Assembly: GCF_037975245.1 (NCBI RefSeq)
Contig: NC_092577.1
Location: 37,068,898 to 37,132,897 of the forward strand
Length of the DNA stretch: 64,000 nt
Direction: 5' to 3'
Source: Apostichopus japonicus
Taxonomy: Eukaryota; Echinodermata; Holothuroidea; Aspidochirotida; Stichopodidae
In this document: positions 9,001 through 62,114 of the stretch, one piece after another
Position numbering within the stretch: position 1 is the stretch's first letter
Layout: the number at the start of each line of letters is the position of its first letter
Translations under genes and position numbers: made by a program
The notes under the pieces: model-generated
Database searches by the model: none
The model's input: the letters and a program-made list of their open reading frames with translations, nothing else
Told to the model about the DNA's origin: nothing

Positions 9001-12000
9001 AGTGATAATGAAACTTGGTCACAACGTTCCTCGGGATAGGAGTTACGAGGGTTGTTCGGAAAATTGAGGTCAAATGTCATTTAGGGGGTCATCGGGGATC
9101 ATTCTTTTAATATTTTCAAATATCTCAATCTCCTCAAGATTTTGATGGATCATATTCAAAGTTGAACTGATGATTGTTGGATTGTGTATGAATAAGGTGA
9201 TGCCTAATAATTTTTGGTCAAAAGTTAATTAATTACAATTAATCCCCATTGTTTATAAAAATCTGAGCCTTCACCTTTTGCTAAAGCTCCTTTAATTTGT
9301 CTCCCAGTTTCTGCAGTGTTTGTTTACATTTGTGGTTAAGCTCTGCAGAGGCTGTTAGTGGAATTAAAGCAGGACTGGGAGTTGTTATTAACTGTTGAAC
9401 TGTAAGCGTGAGAGCCTTACAGCCAATCAGCACTTGCCGATTCTTAGAAGTCTTTGAGCCTGAGGTATGTAGGCAGCCAGCCAAAATTTTGGCAAGGAGT
9501 GCTTCAGGTCTGCTCAGGTAGAGGGGAGAAAGTTTAATAGGGGAGGTCAGTGGTATTGTTTGAGAGAGTGGGTAAAATAGGAATTAAAGGGGGAAAATAG
9601 GAATTATAGCCAGTGGTGTGGCCAGGATTCTGCTAACGGAGGGAGGGGGGGGGGGGTTATCCCTCATGGGCCCAAAATTGGTGGAATCTGAAAAATGGCC
9701 TGAAATTTGGTGGGCTATAAATTTTTGTGGGCCCTACATATTTAAGCTCGAAAAGGTATGAGCTTCTGCACCATTGGTGCTCTAGTCTTAAAGTAATGAT
9801 ACATCTCTTCTCCTTCCCCACATTCTCCCTTTTTCTTCTCTCTCCCTATTTCTCCCCTTCTCCATCTCCCCTCCCCCATCCCTTTCTTACTTTGGTCGGT
9901 TCAGATTTTCGGGGTTTACACAATCCTAACGTGTACACATCTTCAGTTTATTGTAGCAATGAACTGTTAACTGTCAATGAGAATTATGTTACTTAATTGC
10001 ACCACAGACTAGATCAACAAATTGTGCCAGTTGAGTGTGCCCTGAAGGTCTTCAAGACCACCCTGAATGAATTCAAGAACAGACAGAAGTACATCAAGGA
10101 TGACTACCGATTCAAGGACAGGTTCTCCAAGCAAAACCCAAGACGGACAATCAGAATGTGGGCTGAAAAGGAAATGCATAATTTGAACAGGTGAGAAACC
10201 TGCATCTCATTGATAATATGATTACTATGACTACAGTCTATGATAGTATGAAATGGAAATATGCATAATCTGAACAGGTGAGAAACCTGCATCTTATTGG
10301 TAATAATGGTTACTATTACTACAGTCTATGATACTGTAGTATGAAGTGGAAAAAAGCAAGGTTAACGTGCTGTTACACTAAGAATGAAATGTATTTTATT
10401 GTGCTATTAGGTAATTGTTTCATTCCCATTACTGTCTACCTGAAAATGTTGTTATTAATCTTTCACCAAAACTTTCTTTCGCCCGATTTATCCCAACGGT
10501 CTCACAATCTATCAGTAATATGGTTAGTATTGTGTAACTGTTGACACTAATTATTAAGTACATGATCCAGTTTGATGAAACTAAGAAAACCCTCATGTTC
10601 CTCCATGACAGGAATTCGTAAAATAAAGCATATTTTAGGACCATTTCTTCTAAGAAAAACACATGGTCAATATGAAAAGGTTAGCCAAGGTAAATGTTCA
10701 TAGAAAGGTTTCTTGGAGTGAGTTTGGTTAAACTTCAGAAGATTTTACTCAAAGTGATTTGAATTGTTGTGACTGTTTCACTCCTCCTTCAAATGTTTTC
10801 TTCATCAAATGTTTATGAAACTCTGCTTTTCCTTGCAAAGTTGAAAGAGAATTGTCAGATTAAGGGCTGAGAATGAAATGTGTATTAAAATTGACCTCAC
10901 AATGAGAATTGAATTAATCTTTCAGAATGAGGGAAGCTGGTATTCGCACACCAGATGTAATTCTTCTGAAGAAACACATTCTGGTGATGACTTTCATCGG
11001 TGAAAACCAAAAGGCTGCACCTAAGTTGAAGGATGTACCATTGTCCACTGCTGACAAACAAATTGCTTATGAGCAATGTCTGGAGGTAATTATGGAGAAA
11101 TGCTTTTCACCAAGTTTTTTTTTTTTTTTTGAGTTTAAGAAAAATAAAGAGAAGGTATTATTTGTATGTGAAATTAGATAAAAATTACATAACATCTATA
11201 GATTCACTTTGCTTTTCACTCACGAAACTATTGTGCTGTTTGGTACAAGTATTTATTCTCTCATAAAGTTATGCAGCAAATGGCTGGTACTTAGCCTTAA
11301 TCCCTTGGTGACAACTGTGGTGTGGAGTGTTAGCTCAGTGGTTAACGCCGGTGGCTTCCAATCATAAGGTCCCAGTTCGAGTCACTCCAAGATTAATGTA
11401 TGTTGTCCAGTTACAGGGTTGTTGACAATTCATAATCATGGACGTTAAATATGAATCTAAGAGACTGACTTCGGTCAGCTTGCGGTTTGATAAGCCACTG
11501 AGGCTTCTTCGGGAGTTCCTGCTTGCAGTAGGTTCTAAAATACATACATACAACTTTAGCCCCTTTTCTTATATGCAAAGGTGGCTTGTCCCTTGTACAT
11601 ATGCTTTGAAGGTGTTGACAATTAGCCAACATTTTGTAAGAGAATGTTTCAGAGAATCAAGCTTTTGTTCCGACACCAGGGCACAAAACTAATGTGGCAT
11701 TTTGAGCTTTAACTAACTTGTCAATTGGGTTGAATTAATGATGAATATTAATGACCTCCTTCCACAGATGATGGAACGTTTATATCAAGTCTGTAACCTT
11801 GTTCATGCTGACCTGAGCGAGTACAATATGCTCTGGCACCAGGGTCAGGTATGGTTTATTGACGTCAGCCAATCAGTGGAGCCAAACCATCCACATGGAC
11901 TGGAATTCCTGTTGAGAGATTGTACCAATGTCAGCACTGTGAGTGTAACTAATGTAAATCTATTAGCTATCTATTATGTCAGTCGAAGTATAGTGATACA

Positions 12001-13518
12001 AAGATTATATGGCCAATAAACTGCAAGATGGCAACTATATGTATGGTAGCATATGGTAACTTTGTGTGTCCCTCAAATTTCCATATATCTATCTATATAT
12101 ATTTGTTGCATGTTCTATGACAAATGAATAATAAAATATTATAGATCAACACACCAGAAAATTCCACATCTCTACCAGTTTTGTAGTATTAGGATTGATC
12201 AGGGGAAAGTATGAATCAAACCTTGGACCTTTGAGTCTGTAGTAAAATTTTATATATATATATTCATATTCATATATATTTGGCTGAAGAAAGCTGAACA
12301 GTAAACGGACAGCTTCTGATATGTGCATTGTGTCATCCGTCGTTATGTTGTTGAGTTTCACTTTCCATTTTACACAAGATTCTGCATTTGCTGAGTTTGA
12401 AATCAAATTGTAAGCATTATTTTGTACAATATTTAAATATAATTGCTTTTCATGTTAGTTAACATTTGCAGAATATCCTGGTAGGATCCCAACTCCAGAC
12501 CCCCTCAACCTTTACTTATATACCTACAAAGGCTATTGCAGTAGATTATAGCAGTCTGTTAGCAGTTGTTTCTCTCTTAGTCACAATGTCAACAATTTAA
12601 AGCACTTGCTAATACAACATTAACTGTTTATGCTGCTAACTGTAAAATCTTGAGGTTTGTTGGAACTGCTTCGGAGATTTTCAATAACCTGATACTTGTC
12701 ATTTTGTTATTTTAGCTGTATTATTTATTTTATATTAAATCACATTGAATTATCAGTTTCCCAGCAAACTCTGATAAATTGACAAAATTTGATTGGATTT
12801 TCCATTGATGATGTTTCCACTCTGTCACGTTTTCCTTTCCTTTTGCAGTTCTTCTCAAACATTGGAGTTCATGGAGTTTTAAAGCCTCATGAATTATTCA
12901 ACAGAGTAACAAAATTGGATTTGAAACCTGGAGACCACCAAGAATTTTTGGCACAGGTCAGCATCGTCTTTGATTATTTCCCTTTAAAGAAACTGTTGAA
13001 TTTATTTGCCAATGTCTGGCAAATTTTCACTCATTCATTAATCTGAGACCCCACAAAGAGTTCATCATCAAACTGTTGTTCTTTGAAGTGTGAAGTTTTT
13101 CTATTGTTTCCATACCTTAATTTCTATGTTATAGACAATGCTATCAGGTGAGGTATTTGCATTTTTCTAAGCATTCTGCTCGAATCATCCATTCACGACC
13201 GTATATTTGGACAATGCTATGAGGATGTGGTATTTAAATTTTTCGAAGCATTGTGCTTGAACCACCCATTCATGACCTTATGAACCATTCATGACCTTAT
13301 GACCTCATGAACCATTCATGACCTCACATTTTCTTTTCACGCAGATCGAATCTCTTCAGAAGTTTGCTGATGATGAGAAGCAAGGAAAGGATGTAGACAA
13401 TTTTGCTTTTGACTATTTCTTTGAACAGACAAGAGCAGAACAAGAAGTGAACGAAAGGTCTGCAAGAAAGAAGCAATCAGCAGACCAAACAGAGCGGGAA
13501 CATTTAGAAGGGGATTGA
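3077..13518 (+). CDS. RIOK3: RIO kinase 3 (RIOK3), 11 coding exons
   Basis: Atypical serine/threonine kinase of the RIO family, which acts in cytoplasmic late pre-40S maturation (family knowledge). Coding exons: 3077-3255, 3715-3875, 4658-4747, 5836-5963, 6296-6439, 8100-8227, 10008-10190, 10926-11085, 11768-11938, 12849-12956, 13345-13518. All junctions are GT-AG and phases agree, giving 541 aa (human about 519). The nucleotide loop STGKEA lies at residues 263-268, the ATP-site lysine in ALKVF at 290, the catalytic HADLSEYN at 404-411 (D406, N411) and the metal-binding IDVSQ at 422-426 (D423). The N-terminal half carries the RIOK3-specific blocks ([37 protein letters not shown]), which separate it from RIOK1 and RIOK2. 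The start ATG follows a 3' splice site at 3053, so at least one non-coding 5' exon lies upstream. The sequence around the exon 7 donor and the stop codon are each tandemly duplicated. Confidence 0.95.
3565..3640 (-). mobile_element. Short dispersed element, degenerate hammerhead-like core
   Basis: The minus strand reads AAGAAGATCCTGCTACTATC then GAAACGTCAGG and 'CAACTTACTTTTACAC'. It is a diverged copy of the elements at 25378 and 54688. It lies in RIOK3 intron 1. Confidence 0.5.
4829..5410. repeat. Tandem ~145-bp satellite units in RIOK3 intron 3
   Basis: About four units each begin 'GTAAACACGATATCTCAAGA', continue through 'ACCACATTGAGTACAAGAAG' and end 'GGTCAAATTGTGTAAACC'. They are the cleanest copies of the dispersed family. 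Confidence 0.75.
6460..6500. repeat. Poly(G) tract
   Basis: A run of G broken by single T bases lies just after the RIOK3 exon 5 donor. It leads into GT-rich minisatellites. Confidence 0.8.
6590..7165. repeat. 32-bp minisatellite, ~18 copies, RIOK3 intron 5
   Basis: The unit is 'GGTAACTATGGCAGAATACT' plus 'AATATGAGTACA'. Copies are nearly identical. Each contains ACAG|GTAACT, a donor-like sequence, but the unit has no exon sequence. Confidence 0.9.
7170..8000. repeat. ~45-bp GT-rich minisatellite, RIOK3 intron 5
   Basis: Irregular units combine 'GGTTATGGTAGGTGGGCATG' with 'GTAAGTGGACATAG' and 'GTGGTAAGCGG'. The 276-codon open frame on the minus strand here is only translation of the repeat. 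GGTAAG occurs in most units. Confidence 0.85.
8587..9240. mobile_element. Palindrome-headed repeat in RIOK3 intron 6
   Basis: It opens with a near-perfect 28-nt palindrome at 8587-8614 (arms AGCTCAtACCAGC and GCTGGTgTGAGCT). This is followed by an array of TATCACTC and then 'GGTCAAAGGTCA' type sequence. It is probably a transposon fragment; the right end was not found. Confidence 0.45.
9608..9720. mobile_element. Possible fragment of G-run MITE
   Basis: 'GTGTGGCCAGGATT' followed by a poly(G) tract resembles the left end of the elements at 20294 and 46190. No second end was found. Confidence 0.3.
10171..10345 (+). repeat. Two-copy duplication across RIOK3 exon 7 donor
   Basis: Exon 7's last ~20 nt, its donor (GAACAG|GTGAGAAACCTG) and ~65 nt of intron are repeated once, offset 87 bp. 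The second copy has a donor-like site after 10277. Use of that site would add AGG then an immediate in-frame TGA. Confidence 0.85.
11322..11560 (+). mobile_element. tRNA-derived SINE in RIOK3 intron 8
   Basis: The head is GTTAGCTCAGTGGTTAACGC (A box) and AGTTCGAGTCACTCC (B box). The body has CTTCGGTCAGCTTGCGG and ends at GAGTTCCTGCTTGCAG. It is the same family as the copy at 55868. Confidence 0.8.
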
Positions 13519-13583
13519 TTATGTATCCCATCATGCATCACTGTATTTAGAAGGGGATTGATTATGTATCCCATCATGCATCA
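13502..13583 (+). repeat. 43-bp duplication spanning the RIOK3 stop codon
   Basis: The block starting ATTTAGAAGGGGATTGATTA is repeated with a 43-bp offset and includes the TGA. The first copy is coding up to TGA and the second is 3' UTR. Confidence 0.85.
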
Positions 13584-13762
13584 AATGAATCAAGTGCTGG
13601 TTCCTTTCTGGTTACAGGTACTCAGGCCTGTCTCTTGAAGAAGAAGGCACAGACAATGCCCCTCTGAAATGTTAGGAATTAAGTGGTTACTAACCAGCTT
13701 TCAGACGACTACATGATCAGCATCTGTAAATTACGTAGTAAACCCCATTCATAAATTCTGGT

Positions 13763-13768
13763 AATAAA
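13763..13768 (+). terminator. Candidate RIOK3 polyadenylation signal
   Basis: AATAAA lies about 245 nt after the RIOK3 stop codon in an AT-rich context. Another AATAAA at about 14625 is an alternative. Confidence 0.45.
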
Positions 13769-15420: not shown

Positions 15421-15464
15421 CCTTCACACTCTATAACAGCAGCTGGTTTTTTGCCATCACTTCA

Positions 15465-15615
15465 ACTTCAGCTGACCACACAAGGCCAGCAGTAGGAGAC
15501 ACTTGAGCTGACCACACAAGGCCAACAGTAGGGGATGCTTCAGCTGACCATAATGCCAGCAGTAGGAGACACTTGAGCTGTCCACGCAAGGCCAACAGTA
15601 GGAGACCTGGCACTG
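15465..15615. repeat. ~33-36-bp tandem repeat, four copies
   Basis: Units of 'GCTGACCACACAAGGCCAGC' plus 'AGTAGGAGACACTT' lie 3' of SNRNP40. The short open frames here are repeat translations. Confidence 0.75.
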
Positions 15616-15739
15616 CTCATCATACTCCACCTTCAGTACATGGAAAATCATGGAGGAAAGTACCACAGTTTGCCTGTGCTTGAAGACTACTGATCAAGAT
15701 CAAGAACTGATCAAGATATTGCCACCTTTAAGTCATGTT

Positions 15740-15885
15740 GCCCCCATAGCCACAAATGGACAGCATTTAACATCCCAGGCCACAGCATTGGGCCCCAATA
15801 GCCACAAATGGACAGCACTTAACATCCCAGGCCACAGCATTAGGCCCCAATAGCCACAAATGGACAGCATTTAACATCCCAGGAC
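15740..15885. repeat. ~50-bp tandem repeat, three copies
   Basis: The unit 'GCCACAAATGGACAGCATTT' plus 'AACATCCCAGGCCACAGCAT' repeats three times, the last copy diverging. Confidence 0.8.
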
Positions 15886-16041
15886 ATTGGGTGTACTAAA
15901 AGCAATGTCTCAGAGACCAATGCTACAGCCCTTCCTAGATGGTGCAGTCCAAAGCAGGCTCAGTTTGTAACTTGAAAGTCAAGTATGGGATTTCTATCAC
16001 GATTGAGGTTTAGCAACCAAAAGAATGCTTGCACAATCATT

Positions 16042-16402
16042 GATGCTTGACAGGTAGCTACTGAACTGATGCTTGACAGCCATTGACCGGTAGCTACTGA
16101 ACTGATGCTTGACAGCCCTTGACAGGTAGCTACTGAACTGATGCTTGAATCCCTTGACAGGTAGCTACTGAACTGATGCTTGAATCCCTTGACAGGTAGC
16201 TACTGAACAGATGCTTGAATCCCTTGACAGGTAGCTACTGAACAGATGCTTGAATCCCTTGACAGGTAGCTACTGAACTGATGCTTGACAGGTAGCTATT
16301 GAACTGATGCTTGAATCCCTTGACAGGTAGCTACTGAACAGATGCTTGAATCCCTTGACAGGTAGCTACTGAACTGATGCTTGACAGGTAGCTACTGAAA
16401 TC
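16042..16402. repeat. 35-bp minisatellite beside the SNRNP40 stop codon
   Basis: The unit 'AGGTAGCTACTGAACTGATG' plus 'CTTGAATCCCTTGAC' has about 11 copies, some shortened by ~10 bp. It ends 27 bp from the SNRNP40 stop codon, so it probably lies in the 3' UTR. Confidence 0.85.
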
Positions 16403-16428
16403 AATGGCATCTCACCTATATCTTCTTT

Positions 16429-19400
16429 CTATGCGATCTCGCCGAGATAAATCTGCTTATCACTGGACCCTGATACAACTGCAGGTGAAACAATGGAACA
16501 GAATTAATTACATCACAGGTACTTCAAGAAACGAAAAGAACAAGAAAAGTATCCATGGACTGTTCTTACACATGTTTAGAAACAATTCCGGCTCAGTACT
16601 GTAAACAGACTAAATATGTAAAAATATTTGTGATTATTTTCATGCTGGTTATTCATTTCTTTACAGAGAAATAGTTTGACTGTACTTACTAATGGGAGTA
16701 ATGGATTCCGTTGGGTGTAAACTGTGTTACAATTATTGTACTGGGAGCGTCCTGGTTTGACTGTACTTACTAATGGGTTCCGTTGTGTGTATACTGTGTT
16801 ACATTTATTGTACTGGGAGCGTCCTGGTTGGACTGTACTTACTAATGGGTTCTGTTGGGTGTAAACTGTGTTTCATTTATTGTACTGGGAGAGTCCTGGT
16901 TTGACTGTACTTACAAATGGGTTCCGTTGGGTGTAAACTGTGTTACATTTATTGTACTGGGAGAGTCCTGGTTTGACTATATTTACTAATGGGTTCCGTT
17001 GGGTGTAAACTGTGTTACATTTATTGTGTTGGGAGCGTCCTGGTTTGACTGTACTTACTAATGGGTTCCGTTGGGTGTAAACTGTGTAACATTTATTGTA
17101 CTGGGAGCGTCCTGGTTGGACTACTTACTAATTGGTTCCGTTGGGTGTAAACTGTGTTACATTATTGTACTGGGAGCGTCCTGGTTGGACTGTACTTACT
17201 AATGGGTTCCGTTGGGTGTAAACTGTGTTACATTTATTGTACTGGGAGCGTCCTGGTTTGACTGTACTTACTAATGGGTTCCGTAGGGTGTAAACTGTGT
17301 TAAATGATTGTACTTGGAGCGTCCTGGTTGGACTGTACTTACTAATGGGTTCCGTTGGGTGTAAACTGTGTTACATTTATTGTACTGGGAGAGTCCTGGT
17401 TTGACTGTACTTACAAATGGGTTCCGTTGGGTGTAAACTGTGTTACATTTATTGTGTTGGGAGCGTCCTGGTTTGACTGTACTTACTAATGGGTTCCGTT
17501 GGGTGTAAACTGTGTTACATTTGTTGTACTGGGAGAGTCCTGGTTTGACTATATTTTTTAATGGGTTCCGTTGGGTGTAAACTGTGTTACATTTATTGTA
17601 CTGGCAGCATCCTGATTTGACTGTATTTACTAATGGGTTCCGTTGGGTGTAAACTGTGTTACAATTATTGTACTGGGAGCGTCCTGGTTGGACTGTACTT
17701 ACTAATGGGTTCCGTTGGGTGTAAACTGTGTTACATTTATTGTACTGGGAGAGTCCTGGTTTGACTGTACTTACTAATGGGTTCCGTTGGGTGTAAACTG
17801 TGTTACATTTATCGTACAGGGAGAGTCCTGGTTTGACTGTATTTACTAATGGGTTCCGTTGTGTGTAAACTGTGTTACATTTATTGTACTGGGAGCATCC
17901 TGGTTGGACTGTACTTACTAATGGGTTCCGTTGGGTGTAAACTGTGTTACATTTATCGTACAGGGAGAGTCCTGGTTTGACTGTATTTACTAATGGGTTC
18001 CGTTGTGTGTAAACTGTGTTACATTTATTGTACTGGGAGCATCCTGGTTGGACTGTACTTACTAATGGGTTCCGTTGGGTGTAAACTGTGTTACATTTAT
18101 CGTACAGGGAGAGTCCTGGTTTGACTGTATTTACTAATGGGTTCCGTTGTGTGTAAACTGTGTTACATTTATTGTACTGGGAGCATCCTGGTTGGACTGT
18201 ACTTACTAATGGGTTCCGTTGGGTGTAAACTGTGTTACATTTATTGTGTTGGGAGTGTCCTGGTTTGACTGTACTTACTAATGGGTTCCGTTGGGTGTAA
18301 ACTGTGTTACATTTGTTGTACTGGGAGAGTCCTGGTTTGACTATATTTTTTAATGGGTTCCGTTGGGTGTAAACTGTGTTACATTTATTGTACTGGCAGC
18401 ATCCTGATTTGACTGTATTTACTAATGGGTTCCGTTGGGTGTAAACTGTGTTACATTTATTGTGTTGGGAGCATCTTGGTTTGACTGTACTTACTTATGG
18501 GTTCCGTTGGGTGGAAATCAACGTCATTGACTGACCCAGAGTGGCCAGGTAGTTTGTACAAGAGTCTTCTTGAAGTGGTATCCCAAACATACACAAACCT
18601 ATCTGCGGATCCAGCAGACACTTTACTGCCGTCTGGAGACCAGGCACATCTTAATAAATTCTGAAAGATAAATAAATGACTTAATTAATAAATCATAAAC
18701 TAAATGAGTGACACACCAAATGACACAGAAAGACCAATGGTAAAATCCTTCAGCAACTGTCCAAGATACACTAACATTGCTATTATACTTGTAATCAAAC
18801 AAGGACTAACATTGCTATTGTACTTGTAATCAAACAAGGACTAACATTGCTATTATATTTGTAATCAAACAAGGACTAACATTGCTATTATACTTGTAAT
18901 CAAACAAGGACTAACATTGCTATTATACTTGTAATCAAACAAGGACTAACATTGCTATTATACTTGTAATCAAACAAGGACTAACATTGCTATTATACTT
19001 GTAATCAAACAAGGACTAACATTGCTATTATACTTGTAATCAAACAAGGACTAACATTGCTATTATACTTGTAATCAAACAAGGACTAACATTGCTATTA
19101 TACTTGGAATGAAACAAGGACTAACATTGCTATAATACTTGTAATCAAACAAGGACTAACATTGCTATTATACTTGTAATCAAACAAGGACTAACATTGC
19201 TATTATACTTGTAATCAAACAAGGACTAACATTGCTATTATACTTGTAATCAAACAAGGACTAACATTGCTATTATACTTGTAATCAAACAAGGACTAAC
19301 ATTGCTATTATACTTGTAATCAAACAAGGACTAACATTGCTATTATACTTGGAATGAAACAAGGACTAACATTGCTATAATACTTGTAATCAAACAAGGA

Positions 19401-22400
19401 CTAACATTGCTATTATACTTGTAATCAAACAAGGACTAACATTGCTATTATACTTGTAATCAAACAAGGACTAACATTGCTATTATACTTGTAATCAAAC
19501 AAGGACTAACATTGCTATTATACTTGTAATCAAACAAGGACTAACATTGCTATAATACTTGTAATCAAACAAGGACTAACATTGCTATTATACTTGTAAT
19601 CAAACAAGGACTAACATTGCTATTATACTTGGAATGAAACAAGGACTAACATTGCTATTATACTTGTTATGAAACAAGGACTAACGTTGCTATTATATTT
19701 GTAATTAAACAAGGACTAACATTGCTATTATACTTGTAATCAAACAAGGACTAACATTGCTATTATACTTGTAATGACACAAGGACTAACATTGTTATTA
19801 TACTTGTAATCAAACAAGGACTAACATTGTTATTACACTTGTAACAAACAAGGACTAACATTGCTATTATACTTGTAATCAAACAAGGACTAACATTGCT
19901 ATTATACTTGTAATCAAACAAGGACTAACATTGCTATTATACTTGTAATCAAACAAGGACTAACATTGCTATTATACTTGTAATCAAACAAGGACTAACA
20001 TTGCTATGATACTTGTAATCAAACAAGGACTAACATTGCTATTATACTTGTAATCAAACAAGGACTAACATTGCTATGATACTTGTAATCAAACAAGGAC
20101 TAACATTGCTATTATACTTGTAATCAAACAAGGACTAACATTGCTATTATGCTTGTAATCAAACAAGGACTAACATTGCTATTATACTTGTAATCAAACA
20201 AGGACTAACATTGCTATTATACTTGTAATCAAACAAGGACTAACATTGCTATTATACTTGTAATGAAACAAGGACTAACATTGCTATAATACTCAGCGAC
20301 GTAGCCAGGAATTTGAAAGGGGGGAGCACTTTTTGCATTTGATATGGGGGAGGGGTCTAAGGGGAGGGGATAATCAAACAAGGACTAAGTCTACGGGGCA
20401 CCAAAAGGACACACAGTTATTGTTGTTCCTTTGAAATGACAGTTTGACAGAAATAAGGCAGTTTGGTAAGATTGTACACAATGTACAGTATTTATCATAT
20501 TATTATGCGATCTGGATATTTACCTTCTCAAAGTTATGTGTATGACCTTGAATCAACTTTACACATCTCTCAGCCGGAGCAAATGGTCTGATGTCCCATA
20601 TACGCACTGTATAAGAACAAATGTTTCTTTTGATGAAAGAGTGAACAAACTTATGGGAAACATTTTGTTAATTTTGCTGAAATTCCAACGAAAGAATGAA
20701 AGAGATTATGGGATTTACGTGTGATTACAGTGATTACTAAGAGCATGAGAGGCTTGCCTGAAAAGAAAATGAGAAGGAATGTGTTTTCTCTCCATGAATT
20801 TCAAGATTTCTTTATCTGTTGTCAGAGAATATTTGCAAGCTACAAGATTCAAGGCGTCATAACCAGAACAAGCTACCACCTAAACGAGCACTGGCTGATA
20901 ACAGCAAATAAATATATGAACTGGGCAAACTGGTTGTCCCTGGACAATCAGGTCTAATGCAACTGGGCAAACTGGTTGTCCCTGGACAATCAGGTCTAAT
21001 GCAACTGGGCAAACTGGTTGTCCCTGGACAATCAGATCTAATGCAACTGGGCAAACTGGTTGTCCCTGGACAATCAGGTCTAATGCAACTGAGCAAACTG
21101 GTTGTCCCTGGACAATCAGGTCTAATGCAACTGGGCAAACTGGTTGTCCCTGGACAATCAGGTCTAATGCAACTGGGCAAACTGGTTGTCCCTGGACAAT
21201 CAGGTCTAATGCAACTGGGCAAACTGGTTGTCCCTGGACAATCAGGTCTAATGCAACTGGGCAAACTGGTTGTCCCTGGACAATCAGGTCTAATGCAACT
21301 GGGCAAACTGGTTGTCCCTGGACAATCAGGTCTAATGCAACTGGGCAAACTGGTTGTCCCTGGACAATTAGGTCTTACTTTCTGGTTATAATCTAAACAG
21401 CAAATTCCATATAGAATCTCACCTGTGTTATCCATAGAATTTGACATAACGTATGAGCCATCAGGACTAAGAGTGAGACCTGTTATGGAATCCATGTGAC
21501 CTGTCATCTTATACAGAACATCATTCTTTCTCATGTCCCATATCTACATAGACAAATAAACAGACAGACAGATAGATGAAAACGATTATGATAGACCTAT
21601 ATGCAGCGATGGTATGCTACAAGAAAACAATGGTACTTTCAAACTTGCTAAAAACCCACTAAAATATATCAATTTACATTCTTTTACATTTATCCAATAT
21701 TCTTCCCAACTTTCATAAACTTTATTAACTGAATCAATATGCAAATATTTATGAATATATTAGAATACCAATCTATGACATCCAACATCATATCACCTTG
21801 GCAAACTTTTCATACATTGTAAAAATCTCATTTAAGAATGTGAACATCCTGATTAGCAATGAGACCTTGATTCATGACCCTCTTATTTTCAAAAGCAAAG
21901 TGGTACAAGCCACCTCGACTGATAGCTGCAGCTCTTAATATCCTGTCACACATAGACTATACAGCTGAGAGAGTGATCAAAAGCACCTTGATTTATGAAC
22001 CTCTAATGTTCACAGGGTCATTATCAACAACAAAAAAAGAAAGGAAAATGGTGCAGAAAAGCCATCTGGACTGATAGCTGCAGCTCTTAACAGCCTGCAA
22101 AACATAGACTTTATGTTTACAGCTGATATATTTAATTTGGACTGATAGCTGCAGCTCTTACCAGCCTCAAACATAGACTTTATGTTTACAGCTGATATAT
22201 TTAATCTGGACTGATAGCTGCAGCTCTTACCTGCCTGTCAAGCATAGACTTTATGTTTATGTCCAAATATGGACCATATTATTAGAGTCGTTATTTATTC
22301 TGTTGAGAAGGGGAATCTGGTTATATTCCTTTGGTCATGAGAAATGAACGAACGTGGCAGAGACAAAATATGAATAAAATAGCCACTCACTTTAATGGTG

Positions 22401-45312: not shown

Positions 45313-46185
45313 ATCCTTCACCTAAAGATGATTGAGAAGAATGTTTGAAGAGTTAACTCCCAAGTAGCAGTTCCCTGATATAACATTCTGCGAGACAAAC
45401 ATGTTTTAAACATTGTATACAGACTTTGCCTTAGGTAATTTCTTTGTACTGTTTGCTTATTGATTAGCTGTCTTCTGTAATTAAAGCAATTCACACTGAT
45501 GTGTTTTGTTTTGTTTTGTTGATGTGAAGTGGGTGAGTAGTTGTGAGGTGGGTGATGTCTTCCAATTTCCAATTATTTTCACATGTTTCATAGTACCAAA
45601 ACTTGTGTTCTTCAAACTTTTACATAAACTTTATTATTTGATGTAAATAATTAAGCCAAAATCCAGGGTTTAACCTTCCAAATAACTATTCTAAGATATA
45701 TTTTGTGTTAATTTTTTGTTCTACAGACAGATAAGAGTGTTGCCTAATTGTGTGTCTTCATAAATTACACAGTAGTTGGTTTAATAACTGTTGATACAAG
45801 GTGACAAGATAAATATGGAAACATTACTCCATTGCTTTGTACTTGTCTTGTCAGCTTGATTTGCTGAAAGTAAACATAAAATGTTTCTTGTAATGAGTAG
45901 CAGAAAGTGACTATAAATGAAAGTCAAATAATGTAGAGGAAGTGAGGTGTCCTCCTCCTCCTCCTCCTCCTCCTCCTCCTCCTCCTCTATCCTTTCAGCT
46001 GATATACTGTTATACAGTGTAAGGTGACACAAACCAACCATCATCTTGGCTTATATGACACAGATCTATGTTAAGAAGTCCCCAAAACCCCGAAGACAAA
46101 ACAAAGTTATATTTGGGAGATATTCTCGTTTCAAAAGCATGTGTTGTAATTTTGTAAATTATCTGTGATGTCATAGTGCCACTAG
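45313..46185. other. Intergenic sequence with (TCC)n
   Basis: No gene seen. A (TCC)n microsatellite lies at about 45950-45987. Confidence 0.5.
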
Positions 46186-46189
46186 CAGG

Positions 46190-46497: not shown

Positions 46498-46499
46498 GC

Positions 46500-51500: not shown

Positions 51501-54500
51501 GATCATATTTCAACTTCAGGGTCATTAGTGGGGAGTATGGTACAGTGTTGTACAGTATACTGTACATACCAAAACAGTTTTGCACCAAAACTTTGCATCT
51601 TGAATCATTTGTGGTCTAACAGAGCAAGAATTGATGTTCTGACTATTTGGTCTGGTAACCAGTATTAGGTCTATAGAGTTTTCTTTGTTGGATATACTAG
51701 TTTCATAGATGGACATTACGTGGCATTACTGTGGACATTTTGGTATATTTGAATGGGATGGATCATATTTCAACTTCAGGGTCAATAGTGGGGAGTATGA
51801 TACAGTGTTGTACAGTATACATACCAAAACAGTTTTGCACCAAAACTTTGCATCTTGAATCATTTGTGGTCTAAAAAAGCTAGAATTGATGTTATGAGTA
51901 CTTGATGTATGTGTAGAGTAGATTAATACTTTATGCATTCCATTTTTTATGTGGAATGATCTCACAAGTACAGTCACTGCTCTTTTCCGTATCCCAGAAA
52001 GAAGGAAATATGGCATGAAATTACCAATGACATTGTTCTGGCATATCCAAATTAATTTTTTTATGTAGAAATCAGCTTGTTATGGTATATTCAGGAATAA
52101 AAATATGAGTTTTCATAGTCAATTTGTATATGGACAAATTGTCCCGTACGTCACATGTCCCGTACGTCACAGGACAATTTTCATTTGTGTAACCACTGTA
52201 CTGGAATGGCTTCATATTTTTTTCTAATATGTTACAGCTTAGCCCTTGGAAGTTTAGGCTATTCACTAGTTATAACAGCTTGATCACTGCCCTCCTAATT
52301 TCAGAGCGGTTTCAGCTTTGTTCTTTAGTAAAAAAAACACAAAATTCTCTGGTCCCGTACGTCACACTGCACATTAATTAAGATGGGACCTAATTAAAGC
52401 AAGTGTAGGAAATCTTCATGAGTTTGTAATAAAGTAGCAGCAATAACAAATATAAAAAACTGAAAAAGTTTCTGGAAAATAGATTTTATGTAACTTTTAG
52501 ACAAATTTAAGTCTCTGAAATGTCCCGTACGTCACAGTTCAAATAGCTTGGACCTGCCCACCTGCTGTGTGTGTATATGATGTTTATGATCCATATATAT
52601 TCCTGTACCATATTTGGCAAGAGAAAACATTGCTCTTTTCTTCTAATCTGCATGATGTAATTTGTGCTAGATTGTGAAGGAATTCATCAAATGTAGGCCT
52701 ATATTACTCGCATGTGCAACAACAGTGTATAATATGCCTACAGTATAAATCAGTCGCTATTAGCTCTCCATAGAGGTAAAGTATGTTTTCGTAACACATT
52801 TTACATGCAATCTCTCATGGTTGGTTTGCAACGAAAGCAAGGAAATTCTAAAATGAAATATCCAAATTCCTAGCTAACTACTGTAGTATCAAAAACATCT
52901 TGATAGCTTACTTTAAGATATCTTTTCAGTCAATCTCTGAAGAGAAAGACAAATCTAGGTTCCGTAGATGCAGCATCGGATGAAGAAGATGAAGATGGCT
53001 TACCAGAAGATGATCCTGAGGATTTCTCCGAAGGGGCCGTTGTAAGTCCATCAAGATACTCCCTTTTCCCCCATTTTTTTGGTAATTACAGGTAGCTACA
53101 AGCAGTTGAATTTGATCAAATAATACATCAAAAGATTAAAGACAAGAAAACAGAAGTATGAATTTGTTTATGTCTTTCTTAAAAGTGAATCACTAAAGTT
53201 CTATTTAAGTTGGTTTAGATCTAAATAGAATAAATGTTGATATCATGTCACACAATTAAGAGCCATGTTGAGTTATCCAATGTGTCATTCTGTATTTTCC
53301 CATATATGCAAACGACCTACATATTAGTTTGTGCCTTCTACATTGTGTGGCAGGCAAATCCTATATTACTGCTACCTCCAAATTAGGACAATTTACTGAA
53401 TAATGTACTTTCATATCCTAAGCATATTTCAGAGCATTTGTACTACAATATGAGTATCATTTTTCTATCAGATAAAGATTAGGAACTGTTCACACTGTCA
53501 GTACAGGTGTTTTGAAGCATGATATGCCAGGACAGTACAGAGTAGTATAAGCATTAGAATCAGATAAAGGTTAGGAACTGTTCATACTGTCAGTACAAGT
53601 GCTTTGAAGCATGAAATGAGAGGACAGTATGGAGTGGTATTGGCATTAGAAAATTGTCCCATCCGGCTGCTGCTACTGTAAAACTAGTTACTTTCTGAAG
53701 AAATAATCAGCTAAATTTCTGTTGCAATTGTTATCTTTTTTTGCCTGCTAGGAAATTGACAAAGAGGATGAAGCAGCCCTGGAACAGTTTATGAATAAAG
53801 ATGCTCCTCCAAGGCAGACATTAGCAGATATAATCATGGAAAGATTAACAGAAAAGAGAACAGAAGTTGCTTCACAAATGTCTGGTAGGGTTTATATTCA
53901 TGAGAGGTAGAAGAAGCTGTGTATTGTGTGTAGAGTTCTTTATCTACAAGACAGCATTTCAAGAATATTCAAACCACCTTAACTGATGAATCTAGTTTTG
54001 AATTTTGATAAAAAAAAAAAACATTTGTGCTGTTCCATGTGTTATCATTCATTCTAAAAGAGATTCAGGTTTAGCAAATAATGTTCAGTAGATGGGATCA
54101 TTAATGAGGTCACAACAAATGTTATTTCTTGTTTGGCAGGATATCTCACAAGTTTTATCATTCTGTTTGTAGTAAAAGACCACAATGGGCAAGGTGTTGT
54201 CTGACTTGTTTACAAGAAAATATGCAAATGTTGATGTTTTTTAGTAGTTCAAGTAATATTTCTGGTCACATTGATGCATGGAATAATATCACAGCATTCC
54301 TTTCATTTAAATTAAGATTCAAGTTTATATCTGGATTGGAATACTCTCAGTTATAGTATTTTGCCCTTGTTTCTTTGACTAGAGAGTGGTGTATCACTAC
54401 CAGAAGTTGATGAAAGGGTTGTTCAGGTTTACAAAGGGGTGGCGCAGCTTCTTTCAAAGTACAGGAGTGGCAAATTACCAAAGGCCTTCAAAGTTCTACC

Positions 54501-57500
54501 ATCTCTAAGATCATGGGAACAGGTAAGCACTCACAAAACAAGTTAGTTAGCATTTTTTCTTGTATATATTCTGAGAGCTTGTAATGAGGCCTTGTTTAAG
54601 TTAGCTAGAATTATATCCTAATAAAAATATAATAAAACTGTTAGCAAACTGCTTATCCACTAGAGAGCCTGTGTAATAGAATGTTTAGCCTTTGAAGAAG
54701 ATCCTGCTAGGATCGAAACGTCAGGCCAACTTACTTTTACACAGAATTATATCCTGTTTGAATTGAGCAGAGAATTACACAATTTTTCATCTTTTTATAA
54801 ATTTATATAGATCCATTTCATTTAAATATCTGTCCAACTTGTGAGAATTTAGGTTTCCACATTACAGTAAATCATGTGCAGTTCTGATATATATTACTTT
54901 TTGAATGACATAGTGACATTGTTTTGAAAGAACTGAAAGACTTTCATGACATAAAACCCATTCTTACCATCAGCCCTGCCCTTATTAAATGATCCATAAT
55001 ACTGAATTGAAACTTGCTTTGTATTAAAGAAAGGATCAGGAGGGACACTTAAGTCCCCATCAAGGACCCAATAGGAGAGAAAAAAACTGAAGCCACAAAC
55101 ACTCAGACCCGATAACAATGATTAAAGTGCTTGTCCAAAGCATTCTTTAACCCATTCACACTATTTGCAAGTACTACTTTCTCAGGCAAACCGTTCCACT
55201 CATTTACAACCCTATTAGAAAACATTATGCTGAATATTAATCCTACTTTGTGACTTGTGGAGTTTGAAACAATGACCTCTGGTACAACTACTATGAGCAA
55301 ACATGAAAAGTCAGTGAAGAATAAATTGTCAGAACCATACACAATCTTGAAAACCTGAATCAAGTCACCAGGCAACCTCCTAAGCTCCAGTGTGGTGAGA
55401 TTCTACAGCTGTAACCTCATATAATAATGAACACCCTCTAAGGAAATATCTTCGCATTTACTTTTACTATAGATTTTGTACATCACTCAACCAGACAGAT
55501 GGACTGCTGCTGCAGTATTCCAAGCTACCAGGTTATTTGCCAGCAACCTAAATGCAAAAATGGCACAAAGGTTTGAACTTAACATCAGTTAAACTGTTTT
55601 CATAAACTCGGTTTATCTCCTGTCTTTATTTCATCTTCTATGTATTGTCTCCTTTGTTCATTGTACGTTAATATCTGAGAGGATGTATTGTTCACATAAT
55701 CATTCATATTCATGTTGTTTATTGTATGTTAATATCTGAGAGCATGTATTGTTCACATAGTCATTCATATGCATGTTGTTCATTGTATGTTAATATCTGA
55801 CAGGATGTATTGTTCACATTGTGATTCATATGCATGTTGTCTATTGTATGTTAATATCTGAGAGCATGAGGCGGAGTGTCTAGCCTAGTGGTTAACGCCG
55901 GCGTCTCCCAGTCATGAGATCCCCGGTTCGATTCCCCGCCGACAGCAATGTGTGTCGTCTGGCAAGGGTGTTGTTCAATAACAACTTCCCGACATGGACG
56001 TTAAATGGATGTGTGCCGAGAGATTGGCTTCGGTCAGCTTGCGAGTCTATAAGCCTCCATGGCTTCTTTCGCGAGTTCCTGCTTGCGGGAAGATCACATA
56101 TACATACATACATACATACATGTATTGTTCACATTGTTATTCATATGCATGTTGTTCATCGTATGTTAATATCTGAGAGCATGTATTGTTCACATTGTTA
56201 TTCATATGCATGTTGTTCATCGTATGATAATATCTGAGAGGATGTATTGTTCACATTGTGATTCATATTCATGTTGTTTATTGTATGTTAATATCTGAGA
56301 GGATGTATTGTTCACATTGTGATTCATATTCATGGTGTTTATTGTATGTAAATATATGAGAGGATGTATTGTTCACATTGTGATTAATATGTATGTTGTT
56401 TATTGTATGTTAATATCTGAGAGGATGTATTGTTCACATAGTCATTCATATGCATGTTGTTCATTGTATGTCAATATCTGAGAGCATGTATTGTTCACAT
56501 TGTTATTCATATGCATGCTGTTTATTGTATGTTAATATCTGAGAGGATGTATTGTTCACATAGTCATTCATATTCATGTTGTTTATTGTATGTTAATATC
56601 TGAGAGGATGTATTGTTCACATAGTCATTCATATTCATGTTGTTCATTTTATGTCAATATCTGAGAGCATGTATTGTTCACATTGTTATTCATATGCATG
56701 CTGTTCATTGTATGTTAATATCTGACAGTATGTATTTGTTATCAATTGTGATTCATATTCACGTTGTTTATTGTATGTTAATATCTGAGAGGATGTATTG
56801 TTCACATTGTGATTCATATGCATGTTGTTTATTGTATGTTAATATCTGACAGGATGTATTGTTCACATTGTGATTCATATGCATGTTGTTTATTGTATGT
56901 TAATATCTGAGAGGATGTATTGTTCACATTGTGATTCATATTCATGTTGTTTATTGTATGTTAATATCTGAGAGGATGTATTGTTCACATTGTGATTCAT
57001 ATTCATGTTGTTTATTGTATGTAAATATATGAGAGGATGTATTGTTCACATTGTGATTAATATGCATGTTGTTTATTGTATGTTAATATCTGAGAGGATG
57101 TATTGTTCACATAGTCATTCATATGCATGTTGTTCATTGTATGTCAATATCTGAGAGCATGTATTGTTCACATTGTTATTCATATGCATGCTGTTTATTG
57201 TATGTTAATATCTGAGAGGATGTATTGTTCACATAGTCATTCATATTCATGTTGTTTATTGTATGTTAATATCTGAGAGGATGTATTGTTCACATAGTCA
57301 TTCATATTCATGTTGTTCATTTTATGTCAATATCTGAGAGCATGTATTGTTCACATTGTTATTCATATGCATGCTGTTCATTGTATGTTAATATCTGACA
57401 GTATGTATTTGTTATCAATTGTCATTCATATTCACGTTGTTTATTGTATGTTAATATCTGAGAGGATGTATTGTTCACATTGTGATTCATATGCATGTTG

Positions 57501-60500
57501 TTTATTGTATGTTAATATCTGACAGGATGTATTGTTCACATTGTGATTAATATGCATGTTGTTTATTGTATGTTAATATCTGAGAGGATGTATTGTTCAC
57601 ATTGTGATTCATATTCATGTTGTTTATTGTATGTTAATATCTAAGAGGATGTATTGTTCACATTGTGATTCATATTCATGTTGTTTATTGTATGTTAATA
57701 TCTGAGAGGATGTATTTGTTACATTATGATTCATATATGCATATTGTTCATTGTATGTTAATATCTGAGAGGATGTATTGTTCACATTGTGATTCATATT
57801 CATGTTGTTTATTGTATGTTAATATCTAAGAGGATGTATTGTTCACATTGTGATTCATATTCATGTTGTTTATTGTATGTTAATATCTGAGAGGATGTAT
57901 TTGTTACATTATGATTCATATATGCATATTGTTCATTGTAGAATTGCTTTGTGGTACTAATTGAAGGTTTCTTTTCTTTCTTAGGTTTTACAATGTCGTA
58001 TTACTTCCAAGGATACGAGATGACATATGTGAATACCAGAGGTTAAATTATCATTTATATATGGTAAGTGTAACAGAGGTTAAATTATCATTTATATATG
58101 GTAAGTGTAACAGAGGTTAAATTATCATTTATATATGGTAAGTGTAACAGAGGTTAAATTATCATTTATATATGGTAAGTGTAACAGAGGTTAAATTATC
58201 ATTTATATATGGTAAGTGTAACAGAGAAGTGTGGGAGAGATAAGTTATTCAAAGCTTCATAACTAAGCCTTTGATGCTGCTTACACATATGTTATTGAAG
58301 CCAGTTTATTAGTGATTAATTGGAACATATATACATATATAGTCTGTTCAAATTATCTTTGGAGATCCGGCTTAAGGAATCACAATGACTTCGAGTTGGT
58401 AAGCATCATGCTTGATCTCTAGAGTAAGGCAAATATTTCACCAAAACAGAGCTAGTATTATTCGATACTGGTGACAAACGCCTACAGTGGAATTAAAACC
58501 TTCTTTGCTGGTTTTCAAACCTATGCATATACAATCAGCATCCATAGCCTAGTGGGAGGCCGGGGTTCGAATCCCGGTGGAGGCTAGAAGTTTTTTCACT
58601 GTTCTGGATTTTCCAGCTCACTACAATTTCAATTATATATATATATTGATATATATCTATGTTTATTTGAAAGTCCAATAAAGTTGGAAAAAAGTCACAT
58701 TTTCTTTACTTTGGTTTTCTCCATTTAGTCTCTGAAGAAGGCACTGTTCAAACCTGCTGCATTCTTTAAGGGTATTCTTTTACCTTTGTGTGAGGTAAGT
58801 GGATTAGGGTAGTGTCCTCATTATGCCTTTTATCCTGAATCACATTGATTTACCAGTGTGATATAAGCCTTAATGCATCATATTACATTTAGGTATTGTC
58901 AACAATGCCTGATTTCTACCTTTGCAGCAATTTATCTTAGTTTATTGGTAACTAATGGGAACATATCCTATTGTAAGTTGATCGTATGTTAAGCTGTACA
59001 GTCTGCATTTTAGATGTGTTAATTATGAAAGAAATCCAATAGATATCGTTCTGGGCTCATTTTGAAGAAAATGTTATGGTTGTTTAACTTGTTTTTCGGA
59101 CATATTTGGTTGTCCGAAGGATTTTTTTTGTTGTCCAATGAAAGCACCCAAAAATACTACTGTAGTTGCATGATATGGTATATTGCACTCATCCTGTGCA
59201 CAAAAGTTACTAAATATTTGCTCAGGGACAATTATGTTAGTTTATACGTACGTCCTGCGATTTTCCAACGCTTGGATTTTTAAGTGGCGCCAAGCGCCAT
59301 ACATATCTGCAATGCATAAACTTTGCCTTGTAGGTGAGTACCATAACGTTAGGCTGCGCAGGCCTAGTCCATCGGCCTGAGGCTTAAGTCTAGTACTCTT
59401 AGTGACTAGTCTTACCGAGATTGACTTTGTGGAAATTTTGGACAGAATTGTAGTGTATGGCATTGTTACGAAAGCAGGATTCTGCATCTGGGATGCAGTC
59501 TTTTAGCCAGTGGCGCAAAACCATCATATTGCTGCCATCCGGCAAACATTTGGAGGAAGCAAACCCCAAGAACACACTCACAGCTAGGCCTATAAAAAAC
59601 GTAACAAGCAAATTTTTGAATGAATATATTTCTTCCTTTTCAAAACACCACAACTTCTTGTTAAAAGAACCAAAATTCCAGTACTTTGCTCAGATGATTG
59701 AATTTGTTTGCAAACAAATAAATCATAACAATCAACTGCAAGTACAGAGTGAATACAGAGATTTTCATGGTAAAAATAGTCAATGGTGGTTTCCAAATTT
59801 CCTGTGATTCGATTGGCTAATAGCCATTACCATTGTTCACAAGCATTCTTGCATCTATATGCTCAATGAATGCAAAGGGTGTTGTTTAAATGCAACTAAT
59901 TGTAACTATGGTAACTAGTCTACGGCAAACTGTCCGCTTCAGGATTTGACAATAATTTTGTTGTTGTATACTAGTTACAGCTTTCATCATTTGATTTATT
60001 TGTTCACATTATATACATATCACTTTAGGCTTCCGTTTCATACAAGCCAATGTGTGTCTGGTGTTATTATAACTAAGTATTCTGCGTTCCTATCGAGGTA
60101 TTTTAAAGTGCATGTTTTCATGGAGGACTGGTGACGCAAGTTTTTCTGACTGACGCAAACATTGTTAAGACGTTTTAAGTTTAATAATCCTGGCAACAAT
60201 AAATGAATGCAGCAACATAAAAGAACATACGTATGCCCACATTTACAGTATATAACTGCATACACTTTGTACTCCAGCTAGCCTGTCATATGTGGGTGCA
60301 GCTGCCAGGGTCTGTAGTGTACAAAGTATACCATACTTTACGTAACCATTAGTGCTTATGTACAGTTTCCACATTCTGTCTTTACTAATAATGAAAGAGC
60401 TTACTGCATGTTAGGGATGCGAAGGGGTTATGGAACATTCCAAAATGTGATTTATATCTTACGTTGTTTCTAGTATGAATGGGGGCGATACCATCACTAT

Positions 60501-62114
60501 CACTACCACTTTTTCGGGGCTGATTTTGATTTGAAAGAATAGGGATTTTCTGAGCTTTGTTTGAGGTGTTAAACACTTACGACAAATGCTAGTCTTCTGT
60601 CGGACAACAATAAGCAATGTTTAAGGTTGTCCGACGTGCTTTTGGTCGTTCTCGGACAATCGAACGACTATTAAATTTGAGCCCTGCCGTTGCTGAAGTA
60701 TTGTAAGATAGATGCATTGTTGGATAATCAGTTTTTATAATGCCACAATGTGAGTTGAACATGATTGAGTTGGCCTTAAGACTGACATATTTTTCTGTAT
60801 TCTGTAGAATCATGAATTAAGAAGATACATATGATTTAAGTGAGACATTTGTTTTCAAAACGGAAAAGAAAGAATGCACCTTGCATATACCAAACTAGTT
60901 GCAAATATGTTAAAGATAATGAATTTGTGCATTTAGTGATTTTCACATTCCTGTGACTTGATTCTTTGCTCCTTTACAGTGCCCCGTCCTTCCATAGAAT
61001 GTTTTTATCACTTTGTGGCACTTTACTTACCCTTTTTGTTTACAGTCTGGTACATGCACTCTTCATGAGGCTCACCCCCCTCCTTTCCCTAGAATGTTTT
61101 TATCACTTTGTGGCACTTTACTTACCCTTTTTGTTTACAGTCTGGTACATGCACTCTTCGTGAGGCTATCATTGTCAGCAGCATCCTAACTAAGTGCTCC
61201 ATCCCTGTTCTGCATTCAAGTGCTGCTATCTTGAAAGTAGCCGAGATGGATTACACAGGAGCGAACAGCATCTTCTTGAGGACACTGCTGGAGAAGAAGT
61301 ACGCCCTCCCATACAGAGTGATTGATGCACTAGTGTATCATTTCCTACGGTGAGAATTCTTAATCCCCGCCCACGTCCTGGCAGCCTTTCATGGTCTCAC
61401 TTGATGAGATTATCCTAAACCCATGGCAACTAATCATATTAAAATAGGCAAAGTAAACCAAAGAAATTCTTGTCCTCTACTTCAATGCAAAAATAAAGCT
61501 GAATTTGATTCAGAGTGAAAATACCAAACAGTTGAAAACCTGGCATACAGAAAAGAGAGTTCATTTGGAAATGATTTGGGATACATATCTTACAGAAGTT
61601 CCTTTAATATGTCAAAGATTCACGAGGAGAGTAGGATCAGGTCTCAGACCCTTCAAATTATTCAGTTTCTTAATATTCATAACTGCTGATATGGCATTGA
61701 AGGTTGTGTATCTCAGTTTGTAGTATGTGTTTTCTGTTTTGACAAACTGAGGCTCCAATAAAGATGAACATTAGGTTTGAACCATCTTTTATATAACTTT
61801 TGTTGCTTTCAACTCTTTATTCTTTCCCATACTCTTATTTGTCCAGTACTTTTCTCGCTCAATATCTGCACATTTGATTTCTTTGATGTTTTCATTTAAA
61901 TAGGTTTGTGATGGACAAGAGAGAGTTACCTGTTCTCTGGCACCAGTCTTTGTTAACCTTTGTTCAGAGATACAAGGAAGACATTTCTAGCGAGCAAAAA
62001 CAGGCCCTGTTAGATCTCCTTAGGTCCCAGACACACCCCAGCATTACCCCTGAGATCAGGAGGGAGATCATAAACTCTAAATCAAGAGACTCTGAAGAAC
62101 CAATTGTGGGCTAG
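48592..62114 (+). CDS. BYSL: Bystin (BYSL), 10 exons
   Basis: Bystin (yeast Enp1) is a nucleolar and pre-40S assembly factor (family knowledge). Exons: 48592-48738, 49613-49698, 52930-53041, 53752-53884, 54383-54522, 55473-55570, 57985-58063, 58729-58794, 61141-61349, 61904-62114. They total 1281 nt, 426 aa (human 437); all are GT-AG and in phase. Diagnostic stretches: [28 protein letters not shown], an acidic [135 protein letters not shown]. The introns are heavily invaded: a LINE fragment in intron 1, a 2.8-kb inverted-repeat element in intron 2, a LINE tail in intron 5 and a 61-bp minisatellite with a SINE in intron 6. Exon 7's donor is repeated five times and exon 9's acceptor twice. Confidence 0.96.
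49060..49440 (+). mobile_element. LINE reverse transcriptase fragment, BYSL intron 1
   Basis: The frame [19 protein letters not shown] then DCHKLQDDI matches the FADD catalytic block of CR1/Jockey-like reverse transcriptases. Only this block is clear; the rest is decayed. Confidence 0.7.
49793..52560. mobile_element. 2.77-kb TIR element with subterminal GTCCCGTACGTCA motifs
   Basis: Perfect 19-bp inverted ends: TGGGCAGGTCCAAGCTATT at 49793 and its complement ending 52560. The 13-bp motif TGACGTACGGGAC or its complement occurs eight times: 49974, 50138 (inverted), 50308, 50327, then inverted at 52141, 52157, 52352 and 52522. They lie only in the outer thirds. No transposase ORF is seen, so it is probably a non-autonomous DNA transposon. 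A clear target duplication was not found (at most 2-3 bp). Confidence 0.85.
50750..51890. repeat. ~255-bp tandem repeat inside the TIR element
   Basis: About 4.5 copies, each containing GTGGGGAGTATG, TACAGTGTTGTACAGTATAC, CAAAACTTTGCATCTTGAAT and GGTAACCAGTATTAGGTCTA. It fills the centre of the element at 49793-52560. Confidence 0.9.
54688..54745 (+). mobile_element. Short dispersed element with hammerhead-like core
   Basis: Near-identical to 25378-25441: TTTAGCCTTTGAAGAA, a GATCC-TGCTA-GGATC hairpin, GAAACGTCAGGCC, CAACTTACTTTTACACA. It lies in BYSL intron 5. Confidence 0.55.
54860..55440 (-). mobile_element. LINE ORF2 C-terminal tail, BYSL intron 5
   Basis: Minus-strand residues [20 protein letters not shown] then [17 protein letters not shown] and [13 protein letters not shown] match the conserved end of CR1/L2-type LINE ORF2. 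It is a 5'-truncated remnant. Confidence 0.85.
55661..57950. repeat. 61-bp minisatellite, BYSL intron 6
   Basis: About 34 units of 'TGTTAATATCTGAGAGGATG', 'TATTGTTCACATTGTGATTC' and 'ATATTCATGTTGTTTATTGTA', interrupted by a SINE. A 673-bp (11-unit) block is duplicated: the stretch from 56637 matches that from 57310 almost base for base. A smaller ~184-bp duplication lies near the 3' end. Confidence 0.95.
55868..56122 (+). mobile_element. tRNA-derived SINE inserted in the 61-bp array
   Basis: The head has TAGCCTAGTGGTTAACGCC (A box) and GGTTCGATTCCCC (B box). The body has CTTCGGTCAGCTTGCG and GAGTTCCTGCTTGCGGG. The tail is a (CATA)n tract. The minisatellite resumes right after. Confidence 0.85.
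58038..58222 (+). repeat. 37-bp minisatellite seeded on BYSL exon 7 donor, 5 copies
   Basis: Five perfect copies at 58038, 58075, 58112, 58149 and 58186. Each is the last 26 nt of exon 7 (AGAGGTTAAATTATCATTTA, TATATG) plus GTAAGTGTAAC from the intron. The first donor (58064) keeps the bystin frame (LYM then SLKKAL). Later donors would add multiples of 37 nt. Confidence 0.97.
58540..58620 (+). mobile_element. Possible SINE fragment with B box
   Basis: 'CATAGCCTAGTGGGAGGCCG' and 'GGTTCGAATCCCGGTGGAGG' resemble a tRNA-derived head with a deleted A box region. It is too short and rearranged to be a tRNA gene. Confidence 0.4.
59051..60686. mobile_element. Possible hAT-like non-autonomous element, BYSL intron 8
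   Basis: The left end CTGGGCTCATTTTGAA and right end TTAAATTTGAGCCCTG are imperfect inverted repeats. TTGTCCGA-type motifs recur near both ends (about 59096, 59109, 59132; 60600, 60635, 60652). No matching 8-bp flank was found. The 116-codon frame inside (59457-59807) is unassigned. Confidence 0.45.
60995..61170 (+). repeat. 95-bp duplication across BYSL exon 9 acceptor
   Basis: The block TAGAATGTTTTTATCACTTT ... TTTGTTTACAG|TCTGGTACATGCACTCTTC occurs at 60995 and 61090. Only the second acceptor (61140) gives the bystin frame. The first (61045) would add 95 nt and shift frame. Confidence 0.92.

Follow-up and report, generated by a model that had tools for sequence, protein, structure and literature searches.

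Tandem repeats spanning exon-intron junctions in four genes of an apparent echinoderm window resemble the mirages of amphioxus

Five of the 56 exon-intron junctions modelled in a 64-kb window, which is the whole stretch of DNA analysed here, have a close local copy that matches at 22 of 30 positions or better in a direct comparison within the window, and all five belong to tandem repeats that span the junction. The structure itself is already known from amphioxus, where such repeats have been called mirages; the literature that could be searched contained no report of it from echinoderms. We consider it likely that the five repeats are minisatellites of this type, founded by chance tandem duplications that happened to straddle a junction and were tolerated, some of which then expanded and homogenised, and that they can be accounted for without a site-directed process.

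The repeats lie in four genes, in which 31 exons were modelled, giving 27 donors (GT) and 29 acceptors (AG). Exon ends were picked on GT and AG and their canonical form is therefore by construction. The junction list is incomplete, with the 5' exons of RIOK3, which were not found in the window, and possibly the first exon of BYSL missing from it. The genes as modelled are the following.

10008 to 13518, plus strand: RIOK3, five 3' exons (10008-10190, 10926-11085, 11768-11938, 12849-12956 and 13345-13518)
16429 to 27350, minus strand: SNRNP40, nine exons, the last coding exon at 16429-16478
33695 to 41597, plus strand: third gene, nine exons, modelled by homology to a Holothuria leucospilota protein (P0121)
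52930 to 62114, plus strand: BYSL, eight exons

The identities of BYSL, SNRNP40 and RIOK3 proposed in an earlier note made from the sequence were confirmed by matches to solved structures and, for RIOK3 and BYSL, also by Pfam. The remaining gene, referred to here as the third gene, had been labelled exonuclease-like, a label that we do not retain, as no recognisable exonuclease domain was found in it. The four exon-bearing stretches tested gave no Pfam match, no solved relative was found, and a homologue search (E up to 0.01, 949 candidates) yielded a single homologue. This protein, from Holothuria leucospilota, is 683 aa long and uncharacterised, covers 97% of the 272-aa query at 53%, and itself has no Pfam match up to E = 1. 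The end of the eighth exon of this gene is the least certain of the modelled ends. For SNRNP40, the best named matches among the best 120 of 1334 are those of Amphiura (80%), Lytechinus (78%) and Patiria (78%), Branchiostoma lanceolatum stands at 73%, the nearest relative is 89% identical, and no named sea-cucumber SNRNP40 occurs among these listed matches. In a maximum-likelihood tree of 26 rows, SNRNP40 of the window stands beside this 89% relative in a group that has support 100/99 and also holds the brittle star, sea urchin and sea star, whereas the crinoid falls outside it; the exact placement within the echinoderms appears less sure. An amphioxus affinity of the window was considered and rejected on the SNRNP40 identities and on the grouping of this protein with echinoderms, away from Branchiostoma. 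The DNA is therefore taken to be echinoderm, probably from a sea cucumber, as the Holothuria homologue of the third gene suggests.

The five junction-spanning repeats were located by Tandem Repeats Finder, except for the RIOK3 pair, which came from the direct comparison.

10170 to 10346 (right end approximate), plus strand: RIOK3 donor-spanning duplication, 87 bp, about 2 copies, direct comparison
16699 to 18517, minus strand: SNRNP40 donor-spanning array, 72 bp, 25.3 copies, Tandem Repeats Finder
37199 to 38722, plus strand: third-gene donor-spanning array, 76 bp, 20 copies, Tandem Repeats Finder
58037 to 58226, plus strand: BYSL donor-spanning array, 37 bp, 5.1 copies, Tandem Repeats Finder
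60982 to 61167, plus strand: BYSL acceptor-spanning duplication, 95 bp, 2 copies, Tandem Repeats Finder

The repeats are thus present where the earlier note had placed them, with the units and the copy numbers (about 2 to 25) that it gave, and its phrase 'ladders of decoy splice sites' describes the sequence fairly. The share of exon in each unit, put there at 15-75 nt, measured only about 15-27 nt. In RIOK3, the unit takes about 21 nt of exon (10170-10190, the exon ending at 10190) together with the donor GTGAG. Its copy at +87, which places a decoy donor after 10277, is 84% identical over 90 alignment columns, matches the 15 nt on either side of the junction at 29 of 30 positions and is possibly followed by a degenerate third piece; the pair is absent from the Tandem Repeats Finder output, even at a score of 30. 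The SNRNP40 unit takes in 23 nt of the eighth modelled exon, which ends at 18495, and the donor, with a 91% match between copies as reported by Tandem Repeats Finder, and the third-gene unit takes in 15 nt of exon (37199-37213, the exon ending at 37213) and GTAAGT. In the BYSL donor array, 27 nt of exon (58037-58063, the exon ending at 58063) are followed by GTAAGTGTAA, the copies are identical (100% match), and CAGAG flanks the array at both edges. The BYSL acceptor duplication also carries 27 nt of exon, with the real exon start at 61141 and the decoy at 61046. A sixth junction (third gene, donor 35731) has a local copy matching at 21 of 30 positions only and was left out of the count. Judged by eye, the five units (87, 72, 76, 37 and 95 bp) are mutually unrelated in sequence, and the divergence between copies ranges from none in the BYSL donor array to that of the RIOK3 pair, in agreement with the earlier proposal of separate origins. 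Four of the 27 donors and one of the 29 acceptors were hit, and this bias of 4 to 1 toward donors is not significant (P = 0.19).

All five loci retain an intact outer junction that continues the frame of the conserved protein, and it is the outer copy that is conserved. The last, outer copy of the BYSL acceptor duplication encodes CTLREA, as in human, and the first, decoy copy encodes CTLHEA; likewise, exon-part changes that are common to the later SNRNP40 copies are missing from the first copy. Use of the first inner site would lead to a frame shift (units of 37, 76 and 95 bp) or to a stop (the 72-bp unit and RIOK3). The donor of the SNRNP40 array reads GTAAGT in 17, GTAAAT in 6 and AAAAAT in 2 of 25 copies, one partial copy of 26 being excluded, and GTAAGT is kept in 19 of the 20 third-gene copies and in all 5 BYSL copies. 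The presence of a canonical donor in most copies favours the idea that the ladders are functional, in that spare donors or acceptors recruit U1/U2, tune splicing or expression and are selectively kept. We nevertheless regard this idea as very improbable. The SNRNP40 donor hexamer does not exceed the remainder of the unit in conservation (mean mismatch 0.083 vs 0.041, mostly owing to one column) and its variability, which ranks 14th of 67 hexamer windows, is not unusual, so that the SNRNP40 copies carry no clear signal of selection for or against decoy donors. The identity of the third-gene and BYSL donors is uninformative in this respect because their whole units are near-identical. In addition, no sequence common to the units is evident, and the frame shifts and stops that use of the first inner sites would bring also speak against a function.

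Chance duplication followed by tolerance, the reading that we prefer, would work as follows. In a genome highly prone to short tandem duplication, whether by slippage or by end joining, a chance duplication may have its two ends on opposite sides of an exon-intron junction, and some of the resulting arrays may subsequently expand and homogenise. Duplications confined to coding exons would be purged by selection. A duplication that crosses a donor would leave the original exon end and donor at the upstream edge of the array, and one that crosses an acceptor would leave the original junction at its downstream edge. If this outer site is the one used, a normal mRNA would still be possible, and junction arrays could survive as intronic ones do because of this. 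Some details of the arrays are consistent with these steps. The CAGAG that bounds the BYSL donor array on either side is what slippage between short repeats would leave, and copy types recur in pairs along the SNRNP40 array, a pattern that probably reflects expansion and homogenisation of the array. A further duplication in RIOK3 crosses a coding boundary that has no splice site.

13502 to 13583, plus strand: 43-bp tandem duplication across the modelled RIOK3 stop codon, Tandem Repeats Finder

The final 17 nt of RIOK3 coding sequence as modelled, up to the end of the stop codon at 13518, are part of this duplication, which extends 3' from there; its first copy retains the reading frame and the stop. 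Such a case is as tolerance predicts and supports it. The two copies are separated by an apparent 4-nt filler, of the kind that end joining leaves, which would fit an origin by that route.

Minisatellites are abundant in the window outside the junctions as well. Tandem Repeats Finder returned 64 rows, which were reduced by hand to 26 arrays: overlapping rows were merged, and simple repeats, one telomere-like 25-bp row and all units below 25 bp were discarded. Of the 26554 bp of intron modelled, 9330 bp (about 35%) fall within arrays. Local copies of 30-mers (24 of 30 or better, at most 300 bp away) were found at 1220 of 3683 intron positions, a figure that counts positions so that one long array scores many times, at 5 of the 56 junctions, at 20 of 240 mixed positions and at 2 of 581 coding positions, both of the coding positions belonging to the exonic portions of the two junction repeats in BYSL. 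No array lies wholly within modelled coding sequence; about 1.5 of 15 founders would be expected there without removal, and the observed zero, which is not significant alone, gives weak support to purging. This minisatellite-rich setting explains most of the pattern well enough.

To compare the number of crossings with chance, founder units were dropped randomly in the gene spans, with one founder per array and wholly coding placements excluded. For the 14 arrays in the gene spans, 1.05 crossings would be expected and 4 are observed (P = 0.016), and over the whole window the figures are 4 of 26 against 1.14 (P = 0.022). When the RIOK3 pair is added, 5 of 15 cross against 1.19 expected (P = 0.0025); the count without it is the fairer one because the pair was found by inspecting junctions. 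With the minimum exon share set at 4, 12 or 15 nt, P ranges from 0.0018 to 0.006 for the 15 arrays and from 0.014 to 0.031 for the 14 arrays, and a rate derived from the nine purely intronic arrays gives 0.8-1.0 expected crossings. All expected numbers are somewhat too low because the junction list is incomplete. The earlier statement that crossings are more frequent than random placement would suggest therefore stands as far as the excess itself (4-5 vs about 1.1-1.2) is concerned, but the excess is small, comes from one window and concerns a pattern picked post hoc; it is modest and does not demonstrate targeting. The argument on which that statement was based, that exons make up a small part of the window, does not apply. 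A duplication that crosses a junction keeps an intact outer junction, whereas one lying wholly within a coding exon would alter the protein, which makes the smallness of exons irrelevant, and the relevant quantity is the number of junctions multiplied by the unit length.

The same excess, the involvement of donors as well as an acceptor, and the existence of like structures in several amphioxus genes could also be taken to indicate that junctions are hot spots, at which transcription-coupled breaks, R-loops or short repeats shared by AG/GTRAGT sites direct duplication. We find this explanation unlikely, given that the cases are few, come from a single window and were selected post hoc. Moreover, arrays show no pull toward the 5' end of introns, the nine purely intronic ones having a mean distance to the donor, relative to the free intron length, of 0.61; no motif is evident that is shared by the exon-side edges of the units, 15-27 nt into the exon; and the duplication at the RIOK3 stop codon arose without a splice site. 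It is likewise doubtful that splice junctions are preferred birthplaces of minisatellites genome-wide, in this echinoderm lineage as well as in amphioxus, beyond what tolerance and chance would produce, and that they feed new exon ends or introns in this way. If the excess of crossings holds genome-wide, tolerance alone would be insufficient.

Because long near-identical arrays assemble poorly, their copy numbers may be wrong, and one amphioxus mirage was misassembled in a draft genome according to the available text of its report (PMC3087553). That the assembler made the arrays or their copy numbers is nonetheless hardly probable. The copies carry point changes and small indels, leaving 91% match in SNRNP40 and 84% identity in RIOK3, which are not usual assembler inventions, the two-copy cases have diverged, and the same structures have been verified by others in amphioxus.

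Chance duplication with tolerance thus remains our preferred reading, and the closest known relatives of the resulting structure are the mirages. As described in the available portions of two reports (PMC3087553, PMC3902484), mirages are minisatellite-like tandem copies of an exon-intron boundary, on its 5' or 3' side, with units of about 10-160 bp and many copies bearing AG/GT signals, and they occur in several genes per genome, including Adh3 (Canestro et al. 2002), globins (PMC3087553), PGBD5 and troponin C (PMC3902484). The Adh3 data and RT-PCR of globins are said in the accessible part of the former report (PMC3087553) to suggest that mirages leave splicing undisturbed. Length instability, in the germline or in somatic cells, also counts among the features of mirages. 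Like mirages, the repeats described here have units that span the boundary, on both 5' and 3' sides, these units are of minisatellite length and unrelated between loci, and many copies, though not all, keep the splice signals (17 of 25 with GTAAGT in SNRNP40). Unlike mirages, they occur in an apparent echinoderm and not in a cephalochordate, a difference of taxon that we treat as a matter of history and not as a defining feature, and they number five in 64 kb, with up to about 25 copies.

Several structures in human genes are also related, as far as the excerpted texts of their reports go. The 31-bp VNTR of human CBS, c.1444_1467+7(16_21), lies at the border of exon 13 and intron 13 and has been described with population data (PMC2630376, PMC1395315). 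By its name, its unit consists of 24 nt of exon and 7 nt of intron in 16-21 copies, the same layout as that of the 37-bp BYSL unit (27 nt of exon and 10 nt of intron), but it is a single locus as opposed to the five loci found here. Minisatellite expansions also occur at exon-intron boundaries of human segmentally duplicated genes, in a paper that reports 27 intron modifications after manual inspection (PMC2812944, in the part available); splicing is altered by those repeats and new introns can arise from them, whereas the window shows intact outer junctions and no evident new intron. An intron can also be gained when an exonic AGGT segment is duplicated in tandem (Rogers 1989, as cited in the accessible text of PMC4974935), and new splice sites are supplied in this case too, but the extra copies described here sit in existing introns beside conserved exons and no intron is added. 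For echinoderms, no report of junction-spanning repeats was found in the open-licence literature searched, which is weak evidence of absence, and one sea cucumber genome paper, in the portion available, states only that tandem repeats were analysed (PMC5638244).

The five repeats therefore extend the amphioxus phenomenon to an apparent echinoderm, and at high density. If they are general, they would provide natural sets of near-identical donors, from 2 to about 25 in number, with which the rules of splice-site choice can be tested, as well as a steady raw material for shifting splice sites. Gene predictors applied to minisatellite-rich genomes may set exon ends on the wrong copy.

Other features of the window were noted along with these repeats. 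Scans for tRNA and Rfam families gave no matches in the window, Pfam gave none on the plus strand at 1-10 kb or at 25.9-35.9 kb, and its only yield for the minus strand at 42.9-52.9 kb was a single sub-threshold coiled-coil family. Upstream of the modelled RIOK3 exons, at 6514-7985, adjoining arrays with units of 25, 32 and 48 bp occur, the first and last of which are rich in GGTAAG/GGTAGG, and the missing 5' exons of RIOK3 may lie near them. A 35-bp array at 16046-16399 starts about 30 bp past the SNRNP40 stop codon and probably sits in the 3' UTR of this gene. The first modelled SNRNP40 intron contains, at 26400-26900, a fold-back element with 169-nt arms that are 92% complementary and 33 nt apart, which includes telomere-like GGTTAG/TAACCC repeats. 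Between the third gene and BYSL, at 43513-45313, lies an array of 31 copies of a 58-bp unit with 99% match, which is either very young or strongly homogenised. Finally, at 50299-52543, an array of 4.5 copies of a 252-bp unit is flanked by several inverted copies of TGTGACGTACGGGACA, which resemble the termini of a DNA transposon or MITE.
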